Virus record (IMG/VR): IMGVR_UViG_3300030107_005827
Coordinates: 1 to 35,373 of that record
Source of the DNA: a virus
Strand: one strand, 5' to 3'
DNA length: 35,373 nucleotides
Under the pieces are notes generated by a model. That model saw nothing but the letters and a program-made list of their open reading frames with translations. It did no database searches and had not been told where the DNA came from. Every line of letters starts with the position of its first letter. The first letter of the stretch is position 1. A program made the translations under genes and the position numbers. Below are positions 144 to 21,500 of the stretch, in pieces.

Positions 144-277
144 ATTACATGATCTACGTTATTAACAACCTTGTGGAAATCGTGTGGAAAAAGTATATAT
201 TTAAATGTGCAAATAAATGTATATCTTTTGTGTATAGATTGCGTGAGGAATGTGTTAATAAAGGGGTGTATAATTAG
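140..277 (+). CDS. Small hypothetical protein, 45 aa
   Basis: This short frame starts at ATG 140 in an ATGA overlap with the previous stop and ends at TAG 275-277. A second in-frame ATG lies at 149. The product has an N-terminal hydrophobic stretch (MNYMIYVINNLVEIVW) followed by a Lys/Arg/Cys-rich tail with three cysteines, so it could be a small membrane-associated peptide. I recognise no family. The stop-start overlap supports it. Against it, the DNA inside the frame carries two TGTGGAAA-type boxes (172-180 and 183-191) that belong to the repeat family of the neighbouring non-coding region, so the sequence may be under selection as DNA rather than as protein. Confidence 0.38.
   Translation: MNYMIYVINNLVEIVWKKYIFKCANKCISFVYRLREECVNKGVYN
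172..191 (-). promoter_or_regulatory. Two DnaA-box-like 9-mers (upstream pair)
   Basis: TGTGGAAAT (172-180) and TGTGGAAAA (183-191) lie two bases apart. The second is a perfect reverse complement of TTTTCCACA, and the first differs at one base. They have the same orientation as the boxes at 506-514 and 576-584. The identification as DnaA boxes is inference from similarity to the E. coli TTATCCACA consensus and the cyanobacterial TTTTCCACA form. Confidence 0.4.
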
Positions 278-294
278 TCTATTAAAGTGTATAG

Positions 295-309
295 AATCCT
301 TATAGGATT
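295..309. repeat. Short perfect inverted repeat (6-bp arms, 3-nt loop)
   Basis: AATCCT (295-300) is followed by TAT and AGGATT (304-309), 18 bp after the stop of the 45-aa ORF. There is no T-tract after it, so I do not call it an intrinsic terminator, though it may form a small hairpin at the end of the upstream transcript. Confidence 0.4.
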
Positions 310-414
310 AGCGTCTTATAAATGTTACTTTCTTTAGTGATCTTGGCGTTCATTCTATCATAAAACTCAGAGAAAGTCAACCCCTCACAGTAATAATCAG
401 CAGACCCTAATATT

Positions 415-443
415 TTGACAGAATAACACTTTTCGTGTATAAT
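415..443 (+). promoter_or_regulatory. Perfect-consensus sigma70 promoter
   Basis: TTGACA at 415-420 and TATAAT at 438-443 are separated by exactly 17 bp, a full match to the housekeeping bacterial consensus. Early genes of T4-like phages are transcribed by unmodified host polymerase from such promoters. The start point would fall near 449-451. The only ATG close by (450) opens a 7-codon frame, and the first credible gene downstream starts at 1066, so the transcript has about 615 nt of leader or is itself a non-coding RNA. Confidence 0.75.
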
Positions 444-491
444 AGTAGTATGAAAGTAACAGTCACCTTATGAACAGTTAGTAACAATGAG

Positions 492-514
492 TTTTCCACA
501 ATACCTGTGGAAAA
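492..514. promoter_or_regulatory. Perfect dyad of two TTTTCCACA boxes
   Basis: TTTTCCACA (492-500) and its exact reverse complement TGTGGAAAA (506-514) flank a 5-bp spacer. The dyad could be a paired DnaA-type site, a repressor operator, or the stem of an RNA hairpin, since it lies about 42 nt inside the transcript expected from the promoter at 415-443. It also overlaps the possible -35 element (508-513) of a second promoter. Confidence 0.55.
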
Positions 515-643
515 GTATCAACAATTAGGGTATAATACTCCAAGGGTTTATAACACTCTCATTCGTGTAATTGCCTGTGGAAAACTATCAACAATTCGTG
601 AAGGATTGCAGTGTAGTTGTTAACACTGAGAGGCTTCAAGTCT
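504..643 (+). repeat. Two degenerate 70-bp direct repeats
   Basis: Positions 504-526 and 574-596 match at 22 of 23 bases (one G/C difference), 70 bp apart. The next feature in the same phase, TAACACT at 551-557 and 621-627, also repeats at exactly 70 bp. The rest of the units has diverged. AGGATTGCA at 602-610 and 671-679 continues a similar period (69 bp) into a poorly preserved third unit. Each of the first two units begins with a TGTGGAAAA box, giving an iteron-like arrangement. Confidence 0.65.
508..536 (+). promoter_or_regulatory. Possible second sigma70 promoter
   Basis: TATAAT at 531-536 is preceded at 17 bp by TGGAAA (508-513), which matches the -35 consensus at four of six positions. 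The -35 lies inside the dyad at 492-514, so protein binding there could regulate it. This is a weak call in A+T-rich DNA. Confidence 0.3.
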
Positions 644-2436: not shown

Positions 2437-2838
2437 ATGGCCATCAAAATATCTCGTGCATTTAAGGATATAAGTCTATCTTTTACGAGACATCCAGTAA
2501 CAAATGATATAACGATCCTTAAAAATGAGGACGCAATTAAAAGGTCTGTCATTAATTTGTGCAGAACATCGAATAATGAGCGATTTTTTAACCCAGAAAT
2601 AGGTTCAAGAGTTGCAAATTCATTATTCGAATTAAATGATCCTGATGTTACTGAATTACTAGAGGATGATATTAAGAATTTGTTGGATAATTATGAACCA
2701 AGAATTAAAGTAACCAAAGTTACTGCCGATTCATTGATTGATTCGAACAATTTAAACGTTCAAATAGAATATGACATTGTTGGATTGCCATTTCCTAGAC
2801 AGAATATTGAGTTTTTACTACAACCTAGCAGGGTATAA
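2437..2838 (+). CDS. 25: Baseplate wedge subunit gp25
   Basis: The 133-residue protein matches the T4 gp25 / type VI secretion TssE family in length (T4 gp25 is 132 aa) and layout. The start MAIKISRAFKDISLSF is followed by an N-terminal strand pair, helix DAIKRSVINLCRT, the conserved NERFFNPEIGSRV segment, and the family hallmark EPR at residues 87-89 (DNYEPRIKV), the loop that contacts the sheath and primes its polymerisation. It sits at the inner ring of the baseplate next to gp6 and gp53. The stop overlaps the gp6 start as TAATG, indicating translational coupling. No strong ribosome-binding site precedes it. Confidence 0.95.
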   Translation: MAIKISRAFKDISLSFTRHPVTNDITILKNEDAIKRSVINLCRTSNNERFFNPEIGSRVANSLFELNDPDVTELLEDDIKNLLDNYEPRIKVTKVTADSLIDSNNLNVQIEYDIVGLPFPRQNIEFLLQPSRV

Positions 2839-4778
2839 TGTCATTTAATCAATTTACCAACTTAGATTTCAATACATTACGCACTCAGATTAAAGATTAT
2901 TTGAGAAGTAATTCAAAATTTAGTGATTTTGACTTTGAGGGGTCTAATTTTTCCGTATTAATCGATACTTTAGCGTATAATTCCTATATTACTGCCTATA
3001 ATACTAACATGGCAGTTAATGAATCCTTCTTGGATAGTGCCACAGTAAGGGAAAACGTCGTTTCGATGGTAAGAAACATAGGTTATGTGCCTCGTTCGAC
3101 CAAATGTGCAACTGCAAAGATCAATTTTGATGTAGATTTAGGAACATATACCGATGCAGAAGGTGCACAGAACCCATTTAATGCAACAAGTGTAAAATTA
3201 CATGCAGGAGTTGTTGCTATAGGTTCTGTTGACAGTGGAAATTACATATTTTCAATACCAGAAGACATAACTATACCTACAAATACAATTGTTAGGCAAG
3301 ATGCTGACAATAGAACAGCTAATTTTACTGATATTTCAATATATGAAGGAAATTATATTACAAAAACCTTTACAGTAGATAGTTCACAGTTAGATCAGAA
3401 GTTTTTATTACAAAATTCTAATATTGATACATCAACAATTCGAGTTTCAATCTCAAGTGGGGGAGTTACTGAGGATTATACCGAATATAAGAACATTTTT
3501 GAAGTAAATGAACATTCAAGATTGTTCTTAGTACAAGAAATTGAAAATGAATACTATCAAATATTGTTTGGAGACAATATTTTAGGTAAAAAACCAGAAA
3601 ATGGTAGCGAAATTACTGTATCATACATTGTTACAAATGGTGATGTAGGTAATGGAGCAAAAAACTTCACATTTTCAGGTAAATTAACTTATAATTATGG
3701 TGCAAATGACCTTGCTGTTACAAGTGGTATATCAAATATAACCACTACAGAATCGTCTCAGAGTGGTGATAGTATAGAAACCATAGACAATATCAAATAT
3801 CTTGCTCCAAGGGTCTATGCGTCCCAATTTAGGGCAGTTACGGCAAATGATTACATCACTTTAATACCTAGTCTATACGGAAATATTGATTCTGTAAGTG
3901 CATATGGTGGTGAAGAGTTGGATCCTCCACAGTATGGTAGAGTGTATATTACAATTAAACCAAAAAATGGTGAAATTTTATCAACAGCTGTTAAGGATAG
4001 TATAAAATCTGACCTTAAAAAGTATACAGTTGCAGGAATTAAGCAAGAATTGCTCGATCTAAAGTATCTTTATGTGGAATATGACACCACTGTTGCATAT
4101 GATTCAAGTTTTATAAGTAATAAATTGGATTTACAGTCCAGAATTGTCTCTGCAATTCAAACATATGCAAGATCATCTGATATCAATTCATTTGGTGGAA
4201 GAATGAAGTATAGTAAACTGCAATCTATAATCGATACAGTTGATAAAGGAATCACTTCAAATATTACAAATATTAAGATTCGAAGGAATTTGACTCCTCT
4301 TTTCAATCAATTGGCAACTTACGAATTGTGTTATGCCAATGAATTTCATGCAGATTTAGAAGGTTTTAATGTTAGATCAACATCATTTACACTCGATGGT
4401 GTAAATGGAGACATTTATTTGACCGATTTCCCAAATCCTGATCAAAAAACAGGAATTATAAAGTTCTTTACGTTATCAGATAATGGTGAAGTCTTGTATG
4501 TGAATGAAAAAGCAGGTGAAATTCACTACAATAAGGGTGAAATTATACTTTATCCTACCAATATTACATCTACAAGTTTGAATGATCGAATTGAAATTGA
4601 AGTAATACCAGAATCCAATGATATTGTCGCAAAACAGAACCTTTATATTGTGCTAGATACTACAGGAAATAGTGCATTACACTTAATTGAAGATGTAATT
4701 TCTTCTGGTGCAAATAGGTCTGGTAACATGTACAAACCTCCATCTAGTTTCATTAGCAGTAAAAAATATACGAGATAA
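2838..4778 (+). CDS. 6: Baseplate wedge subunit gp6
   Basis: The 646-residue protein is close to T4 gp6 in length (660 aa). The N-terminal segment with FEGSNFSVLIDTLAYNS, then NMAVNESFLDSATVRENV and GYVPRS, is the conserved gp6/baseplate J-type core. In T4, two gp6 copies with one gp7 form the wedge core and the gp6 ring that holds the six wedges together. The middle (about 330-470, ASQFRAVTANDYITLIPSLYG onward) is the J-like domain. A C-terminal beta-rich part ends in a basic tail (ISSKKYTR). It is coupled to gp25 by TAATG and is followed after two bases by the giant gp7-like gene. Unlike its neighbours it carries no obvious inserted repeat modules. Confidence 0.95.
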   Translation: MSFNQFTNLDFNTLRTQIKDYLRSNSKFSDFDFEGSNFSVLIDTLAYNSYITAYNTNMAVNESFLDSATVRENVVSMVRNIGYVPRSTKCATAKINFDVDLGTYTDAEGAQNPFNATSVKLHAGVVAIGSVDSGNYIFSIPEDITIPTNTIVRQDADNRTANFTDISIYEGNYITKTFTVDSSQLDQKFLLQNSNIDTSTIRVSISSGGVTEDYTEYKNIFEVNEHSRLFLVQEIENEYYQILFGDNILGKKPENGSEITVSYIVTNGDVGNGAKNFTFSGKLTYNYGANDLAVTSGISNITTTESSQSGDSIETIDNIKYLAPRVYASQFRAVTANDYITLIPSLYGNIDSVSAYGGEELDPPQYGRVYITIKPKNGEILSTAVKDSIKSDLKKYTVAGIKQELLDLKYLYVEYDTTVAYDSSFISNKLDLQSRIVSAIQTYARSSDINSFGGRMKYSKLQSIIDTVDKGITSNITNIKIRRNLTPLFNQLATYELCYANEFHADLEGFNVRSTSFTLDGVNGDIYLTDFPNPDQKTGIIKFFTLSDNGEVLYVNEKAGEIHYNKGEIILYPTNITSTSLNDRIEIEVIPESNDIVAKQNLYIVLDTTGNSALHLIEDVISSGANRSGNMYKPPSSFISSKKYTR

Positions 4779-18528: not shown

Positions 18529-21500
18529 ATGACCCAAGTTACCAACTTAAATATCTCACCATATTATGATGATTTTGATTCATCTAAGAATTATAACAGA
18601 GTTTTATTTAAACCAGGTTATCCTGTTCAATCCAGAGAATTAACTCAGTTACAAACTATTTTACAGAATCAAATTGAGAAATTTGGGCAACATTTTTTCA
18701 AAGAAGGTTCAATGGTTATTCCTGGTGGAACAATCGTTGATAAAAGTTATTTTGCAGTAAGATTAGATCCAACCTTTCTTAATATACCAGTAAAGAATTA
18801 CACTCAATATTTGGCAGATAATAAGATAGAAATAAAAGGTGATATATCTGGTGTTACAGCAACAGTTGTTAATAGAATTACTGATGTAGAATCATCAGAT
18901 AATTTTGATACATTATATGTTAAGTATTCTGGGGCAGGAGATGATGGAGTTTCTAAAAAATTTCAAGACGGAGAGAGACTAGTTACTCTTTCTGATATTG
19001 AATATGCAAATACAAAAATATCAGCAAATAGTCAATTTGCTCAAACTATAATTTCAAGTTCAAATAAAATTGGATGTTCTGCTTCAATTAGTGAAGGTAT
19101 ATTCTTCATTAGAGGTTATTTTGTTGAAGTTCCATCTTCTACAATAATTTTAGACCAATATAGTAATTCACCAAGTTATAGAATTGGTTTAAATATAAAC
19201 GAAGAAATTGTTGCACCATCACTTGCTAATTTTGATTTATTTGATAATGCACAGGGATATTCTAATGAAACTGCTCCAGGTGCTGATAGATTTAGAATAT
19301 CTGCTTCATTACAAAAGAAATTATTAACAGATACAGATGATTTAAATTTTGTTGAATTGATTCGTATTGAAGATGGAGAACTTAAAAGACATGTTAATAG
19401 AACAGAATATAATATTTTTAAGGATGAATTAGCTAGAAGAACATACGATGAGTCTGGTGATTATTATATTCGTCCATTTTCAGTTGATGTCAGAGAATCT
19501 TTAAATAACAGAATAGCAAATAGAGGAATATATTTACCAACACAAAAAACTCAGAATGGAAATACACCATCTGATGATCTGATGACTCTTCAGGTATCTG
19601 AAGGAAAAGCATATGTTAAAGGATATGAGATAGATAAAATTTCTACATCTTCTGTAGATGTATTAAAACCAAGAACATCAAAATCACATAAAGATGTTGT
19701 TCTTCCAATTAGAATTGGAAATATTGCTACTGTTGAAAATATTTTCGGATCTCCTGCTGTTGGATTTGATACTAGTATTAAATTATTAGATAGAAGAACC
19801 AATGCACAACGTGTTTCAGATCAAGATGGCAGTGTAATTGGAAAGGCTAGAGTATATGATTTTAATCCAATTGGTTCTGCAAATTATCAAGTTAGATTGA
19901 TTGATATTCAAACATTTACAAAGGTTTCTTTAGCTTCTACTACTTTAATTGCTGTTAATGATCAAATTGAAGGAAAATATAGTGGATCTACTGGTTTTGT
20001 TGATTCTGCAAGTAGTGTTGGATCTGTTTTAACTTTAAGTGATGTTAGAGGTGAGTTTCAAATTAATGAACCACTAATAGTTAATGGAATAGAAATTGGT
20101 AGCAATATTGGAACTGTTAGAGATTATAATTATACAGATATAAAAGCACTTCATAGTGCTGATGGTATTGGTAGTGGAACTACTACTTTTGCTGCTAATT
20201 TGTCTCTAAATCGCACTAGTAGAGTATTTTTACCAAATAGTGAATTTCTCATAACAGCAGGAGATGCGACTAGTGGAATATCAACTATCACCTCTTCTTC
20301 AGTTGCAGATTTTAAAACAATAGTCAGAGATGGGGATATAATTTCTTATAATCGAGCTGGTGATGGTAACACAATTCCAACATATGCTAGGGTTAATGAA
20401 GTTTTAACTAGTGAACTTAGAATAAGTGCAGTAACGAATGTTACTGGTATTAATAATGGAGGAACTTTACCTAGTGTTAACATAACTCCGAATGAAGTTG
20501 ATCTTCGTATTCCATTCTTATCTGAAGCTGGAAATACTGGACTTATAATACCATTTGAAAGATCAAATGTTTCATCCTTGAATATTTTAAATAGTAGTTA
20601 TATTGTCAGAAAGAAATTTAATCAAACATCTTCTAATTTCCAATTAGTTTTAAATTTGAGTAGTCATGGGGATGATCTTTCTTTTGAACCTTTTACTGAA
20701 ATTAGGTATGTAATTACAAGGGATAGTAATGGTGTAAGAGAAACTTTAAGGGCAGCACAATTTACATTTAGTAATAACAGTAGAACATTAACTATTAGTG
20801 GTCTTAGTGCTAATGCAGCATTTACAGTAACTGCTACAGTAAAGAGAACTAGATTTTCATCCATAGAAAAGAATATAACAAGATGTTCTAGTCTTGTAAT
20901 AAATAGATCCAATAATTCAGCATCAGGAATAACAACAACTTCACTTAATGATGGATTAACATTTAGCAAAGTTTATGGAACAAGAGTTCAAGATAAGGAA
21001 ATATCACTAAATGTTCCAGAAATTCATAGAGTTTTGGGAGTATTTGAATCTGATGATACTACAGATCCTGATATCCCATCATTAACTGTGTCATTCCAAT
21101 CAGATCCATTTACTAATAATGTAATTGTTGGAGAACAATTAATTGGATCTGTTTCTGGTGCAGTTTGTCGTGTTGTTAGTATTCCTAGTTCAACCCAATT
21201 AACTTTTGTATATGAAAATGATAAGTCTTTGGAACTTGAAGAATCCTTTACCTTACAAACTTCTGGGATAATAGGAACCATTAGTAATATAGATTCTGGA
21301 GATACAAATATAATTGATAATTATATTTTAGATCAAGGTCAGAGAGCAGAATATGCTGATTATGGAAGATTAATAAGAGATGTTAATTCTAATGAACCTA
21401 CAAGAAAAGTTAGAGTTATATTTGATCATTATTCACGATCTGGTGTTGGAACTGACGGAACATTAGAATCTATTAATAGTTACAGTTCATTAAATTATTC

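Follow-up and report, generated by a model that had tools for sequence, protein, structure and literature searches.

What would a T4-like phage of cyanobacteria do with a cluster of its host's replication initiation signals? The question is raised by the window analysed here, a 35,373-nt IMG/VR record representing a 35-kb fragment of a T4-like cyanophage genome, in which a non-coding gap carries repeated copies of the 9-mer TTTTCCACA. T4-type replication is, to our knowledge, regarded as independent of DnaA. Origins of plasmids and plasmid prophages of the P1 oriR type do depend on this protein and borrow it from the host via DnaA boxes, although they rely on iterons and a Rep protein and do not belong to lytic T4-like phages. 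T4-like cyanophages count among the most abundant viruses in the sea; viruses of this kind may borrow the replication starter of their host, and such a locus could couple the replication of the phage to the cell cycle of its host. The preliminary description of this DNA had proposed a candidate origin or a site recruiting host DnaA, with a phage repressor reading the same 9-mer as the main alternative.

Its account of the sequence was accurate. The assignment to a T4-like phage was borne out by matches to gp25, gp6, gp8 and gp13-gp17, which together with the phrog_1574 gene are the proteins recognised in the window. A scan of both strands recovered four exact copies of TTTTCCACA and one copy with a single mismatch at the positions originally reported (Table 1), the exact ones lying within 402 nt of non-coding DNA, and no further exact copy on either strand of the whole record. 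We consider the gap as non-coding because no ORF of at least 45 aa was found between 278 and 1039, short ORFs being present at 3-143 and 140-277; no Rfam family matched within it, and the 50-aa ORF that bounds it on the right matches no known family. An origin of the cluster in chance or base composition, for which the AT-richness of the DNA and nothing else could be adduced, has practically no probability: about 0.76 exact copies are expected in the whole window, a set of 2000 first-order Markov simulations with matching composition never gave more than two copies per 402 nt, and independent samples show the same cluster. Matches with up to one mismatch, on the other hand, are close to chance (25 including the exact copies vs. 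19 expected). The head-to-head pair could form a hairpin, and a role as hairpin or terminator is disfavoured because the sequence of the 9-mer is itself fixed and 204 of the exact boxes do not belong to head-to-head pairs. A possible unwinding region is the 60-nt segment adjoining the left boxes, where the gap is richest in AT.

Table 1. Positions of the boxes, promoters and neighbouring genes in the window, and of the palindrome arrays in other phages
Feature	Position	Strand	Description
Left box group	172-180, 183-191	-	ATTTCCACA (one mismatch) and TTTTCCACA; direct repeat with 11-nt period
Most AT-rich 60-nt segment of the gap	181-240		GC 0.23; adjoins left boxes
Element A, leftward sigma-70 promoter	335-384	-	TTGACT-N17-TAGAAT (380 to 352) and conserved first transcribed bases CGCCAAGATCAC
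Rightward sigma-70 promoter	415-443	+	TTGACA-N17-TATAAT, 12/12 matches
Head-to-head pair	492-514	both	TTTTCCACA-ATACC-TGTGGAAAA; 492-500 (+), 506-514 (-)
Single box	576-584	-	Within a 23-nt direct repeat of 504-526
Small ORF, 50 aa	1066-1218	+	Right bound of the gap; similar ORF in L113 (= L054) and L133 (= L006)
phrog_1574 gene, 252 aa	1281-2039	+	Anchor gene downstream of the locus
Baseplate wedge genes gp25 (2437-2838) and gp6 (2838-4778)	2437-4778	+	About 2 kb downstream of the locus
CTCGACKAGA arrays in phages without DnaA boxes	L208:1112-1251, L210:2660-2816, L212:3371-3468, L014:36-214

The preliminary description had named TTTTCCACA as the cyanobacterial form of the DnaA box, and this is indeed the published form (PMC4674748). 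Upstream of dnaN in 20 genomes of the host family, no other 9-mer is as common: it occurs in 15 of the 20 regions (27 copies), as counted over the 701 nt around the dnaN start with simple repeats left out. The phage locus thus shares with the cyanobacterial oriC the same 9-mer, clustered in non-coding DNA, but differs from it in its strong divergent promoters, in the absence of dnaN and dnaA and in the arrangement of the boxes, which in the host are more widely spaced. None of the 121 host-family genomes inspected has a tight exact head-to-head pair; therefore, the phage did not take over its arrangement from a host oriC. The base preceding the phage boxes is G in 63% of them (74% outside pairs), as it is in all four boxes found in the oriC of E. 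coli, a preference that host oriC boxes do not share. A DnaA encoded by the phage itself was rejected as the reader of these boxes, PF08299 (DnaA domain IV) having no match in nine phage records with a box cluster. Given the identity with the host box, binding by host DnaA is probable. The boxes are exact and dense, commonly 2-7 per phage locus vs. about 1-3 exact ones per host oriC, as would suit an array that, with phage copies accumulating, titrates away host DnaA and so stops initiation at the host chromosome. Such a decoy, however, would not have to sit at a set place next to promoters and an AT-rich motif, and the position is nonetheless conserved, which leaves it in our opinion quite improbable.

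Conservation was approached from several sides. Among 80 relatives retrieved through the phrog_1574 protein, L006, L054 and L027 carry clusters upstream of the phrog_1574 gene, and no copy of the box was found in the 272 kb downstream of the start of this gene. The pair and the promoter preceding it are almost base-for-base the same in L006 and L054, the former having a box also on the left-group side of element A, 57 nt away. A blind scan of IMG/VR for TTTTCCACA-N3..8-TGTGGAAAA matched at least 120 stretches, the head-to-head pairs found having spacers of 3 to 6 nt, compared to nine for the reversed control pattern. Spacers of 3, 4, 5 and 6 nt accounted for 16, 88, 26 and 4 of 134 cases, and 7 or 8 nt were never seen. 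Among the 120 pair stretches listed, 59 encode phrog_1574, gp25 or gp6, and 68 have T4-like proteins or element A. In the matched control with pairs of the universal box TTATCCACA, a single stretch of 120 had any match to a T4-like protein and none had element A; pairs of the universal box as the same locus in other phages were consequently rejected, gp25/gp6 or element A being found in 0 of 120. Near the pairs, exact boxes number 362 vs. 0.9 expected, an enrichment of about 400-fold in loci that were themselves chosen by the pair. A further concern of the preliminary description, that the 9-mer might be common throughout the genome, did not materialise: away from the pairs it occurs at chance level, with 8 copies in 682 kb of relatives. 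The clusters are confined to one genome locus that is conserved in relatives, the exception being the long contig G124 with a second cluster. Within the locus the arrangement varies among head-to-head pairs with spacers of 3 to 6 nt, direct repeats of 11-12 nt and single boxes. In four loci (L377, L086, L088 and L149) a second box cluster lies about 1 kb from the first, so that these loci may be bipartite.

A sample blind to the boxes was obtained with CTAACCTACAGAGGTGACA, a conserved non-coding 19-mer located near 876-894 of the window. The exact 19-mer, which is part of a non-coding element at 865-927, was present in at least 120 IMG/VR stretches (loci L553-L672) and gave 114 distinct loci. 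In all 105 loci having the gene, phrog_1574 or gp25 follows the marker on the same strand. Exact boxes are concentrated on its upstream side, with 95 copies in 171 kb (0.56 per kb) vs. a single one in 292 kb (0.003 per kb) downstream. A tight cluster was found in 19 of the 72 unselected loci with at least 1 kb of upstream sequence, i.e. about a quarter. The conservation that the preliminary description had asked for is there in the closest relatives and in many distant ones, and roughly three quarters of unselected relatives do without the cluster. Degenerate boxes were sought in phages devoid of exact ones and not found, loci with element A and no exact box showing no excess of one-mismatch copies. 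Therefore, the box trait is present or absent rather than graded, and the boxes are dispensable in many relatives.

A second component of the locus, often found together with the boxes, is element A. We had considered it as a palindromic binding site, a reading dropped when the alignment showed a sigma-70 promoter directed leftwards with a conserved start, TTGACA-N17-TATAAT-GCnnGCTAAGATCACAAG. It lies upstream of gp25 and antisense to the baseplate genes in 43 of 45 cases. Its profile matches 59 copies, 52 of them at no more than 700 nt from an exact box (11.7% expected from coverage), most of these loci having been fetched by their boxes; a fairer figure comes from the unselected sample, where 42 of 72 loci have element A and 21 of these 42 a box within that distance. 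A rightward promoter matching at least 11 of 12 consensus positions stands opposite element A in 26 of 41 relatives, compared to 28 of 399 control stretches. An AT-rich 19-mer, AAATGTATTAAAAAACATA, lies close to a box in 28 loci, at a distance of 11-48 nt, and occurs 11 times elsewhere, the near zone making up 4.7% of the DNA; it has no match in the window, which has just a general AT-rich segment, and the surroundings of the clusters are only modestly more AT-rich than controls.

Since the boxes adjoin both promoters, host DnaA might bind them as a transcription factor for divergent early promoters and not at an origin. In several loci, L098 and L132 among them, the -35 of the rightward promoter begins immediately after the last box, and in P-SSM2 and L014 palindromes of another kind sit inside the promoter spacer of the same gap. 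Nonetheless, the place of the boxes relative to the promoters is not fixed, being upstream of the -35 in some loci, while in the window, L006 and L054 the boxes follow the promoter at a distance of about 50 nt, and further clusters lie about 1 kb away in S-RIM32, L086, L088 and L149. We hold a purely transcriptional role to be unlikely.

The palindromes just mentioned bear on the alternative raised at the outset, namely that a DNA-binding protein of the phage recognises the same 9-mer and uses the boxes as its operators. Arrays of CTCGACKAGA occupy the same gap in P-SSM2, S-T4, S-SRM01 and L014 and hold most or all copies of this motif in each genome; in S-T4 they form two identically spaced clusters, and L176 and L200 have both DnaA-box and CTCGACKAGA arrays. 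In P-SSM2 and L014 one copy occupies the spacer of the rightward promoter, between -35 and -10, a placement suggestive of regulation. Nothing speaks more strongly for retaining the operator reading than this other array in the same gap, to which the head-to-head arrangement, absent from the 121 host genomes, and a spacer peaking strongly at 4 nt, as for a dimer, can be added. On the contrary, identity with the host box over all nine positions would have to be a coincidence, the spacer varies from 3 to 6 nt, many boxes stand alone or recur directly every 12 nt, the clusters are not spread over the genome as a regulon would be, and no protein with DnaA domain IV was detected in the nine phage records searched. 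Neither a fixed spacing of half-sites nor a fixed place relative to the promoter, both expected of a dyad operator, was observed; an array of variable spacing and orientation suits DnaA arrays better, and we regard the operator as a rather unlikely explanation. In another phage without boxes (L080:162-304), seven tandem repeats of 22 nt holding GTGCTAGAAAT were noticed directly beside element A.

Among the genomes of isolated phages, a tight cluster is present in seven: S-PM2, S-RIM32, Syn1, S-RIM44, Sf-CH11, S-CAM1 and Sf-FP1. S-PM2 has one triplet (19231, 19244 and 19256), 7.6 kb upstream of gp25, and S-RIM32 a triplet plus a pair 1 kb further, whereas Syn1, S-RIM44, Sf-CH11 and Sf-FP1 have three direct copies, and S-CAM1 has two, with a period of exactly 12 nt. 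DSL-LC02, Syn9 (52565/52589, 5.7 kb upstream of gp25) and S-SM2 each have two boxes at a distance of 21-34 nt, and a single exact box adjoins element A in S-8S55 and S-PRM1. Among the isolate genomes scanned, no cluster was found in P-SSM2, S-SSM7, S-T4, Bellamy, ACG-2014f, S-SRM01, P-SSM4, S-RSM4, P-HM2 or S-B43. The GC skew, named in the preliminary description as a possible indicator of an origin, was uninformative, its cumulative curve rising through nearly the whole genome of S-PM2 and Syn9 with no turn at the boxes. In S-PM2, RefSeq places a tRNA-Asn and a tRNA-Leu over the box triplet (L219:5178-5334, i.e. S-PM2 19177-19333); these annotations look doubtful, since an ARAGORN search finds no tRNA anywhere in the 13-kb stretch L219.

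Taken together, the array of host-type DnaA boxes is real and conserved, and it occupies a fixed place alongside divergent sigma-70 promoters. The boxes lie, in a subset of T4-like cyanophages, between and beside two divergent promoters, early-type as judged by their sequence, some 2-8 kb upstream of gp25-gp6. This place recalls T4 oriE, annotated at 79,355, 1.7 kb upstream of gene 6 and in minus-strand direction, an origin that reportedly requires an early promoter and contains iterons of unknown role (PMC3016281). The cyanophage locus likewise lies upstream of gene 6, with repeated sites nearby and with a promoter, presumably active early, that is directed against the late genes. The T4 repeats, however, belong to the coding sequence of gene 5, recur with a 24-nt period and include no DnaA box, so that T4 iterons as homologues of the boxes were rejected and the analogy is one of place and plan, not of shared sites. 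T4 also has repEA/repEB on its early strand; neither these genes nor T4-type iterons were found at the cyanophage locus, and the window has no minus-strand ORF of at least 45 aa to the left of the promoter. In the literature searched, we found no mapped origin and no link to DnaA for T4-like cyanophages. For the related Syn9 a single theta origin has been predicted (Weigele et al. 2007, cited in PMC2984593), and that review makes no mention of DnaA.

Against this background, the identity of the boxes claimed in the preliminary description has stood, and the origin proposed there remains plausible, helped by the oriE-like position and the promoters. As the best single explanation we predict an oriE-like origin or initiator-loading site that recruits host DnaA, giving this prediction an even chance; the absence of a cluster from about three quarters of unselected loci, the lack of a head-to-head pair and of the preceding G in host oriC, the missing skew turn, the palindrome array in the same gap of other phages and the hairpin that the pair could form were all counted against it. 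Early after infection, host RNA polymerase would transcribe leftwards from element A, against the late genes, while host DnaA would occupy the box arrays; the bound protein and transcription might together open the adjacent AT-rich DNA, onto which, by analogy with T4, the phage gp41/gp59 replisome could be loaded, or synthesis could be primed from the transcript. It is tempting to extend this to a widespread group of T4-like cyanophages that recruit host DnaA to an oriE-equivalent locus in order to start replication there, the locus being a cassette site where initiator-binding arrays (DnaA boxes, CTCGACKAGA palindromes or none recognisable) are exchanged between lineages, a tentative generalization that in its full breadth we rather doubt. 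A conserved locus with a host initiation signal offers an exact place for a test, at 19.2-19.7 kb in S-PM2 and 60.8 kb in S-RIM32. As to T4 itself, the oriE repeats lie at 79402-79569 (L376:3403-3570) inside the coding sequence of gene 5; therefore, the so-called iterons may reflect repeats of the encoded protein.
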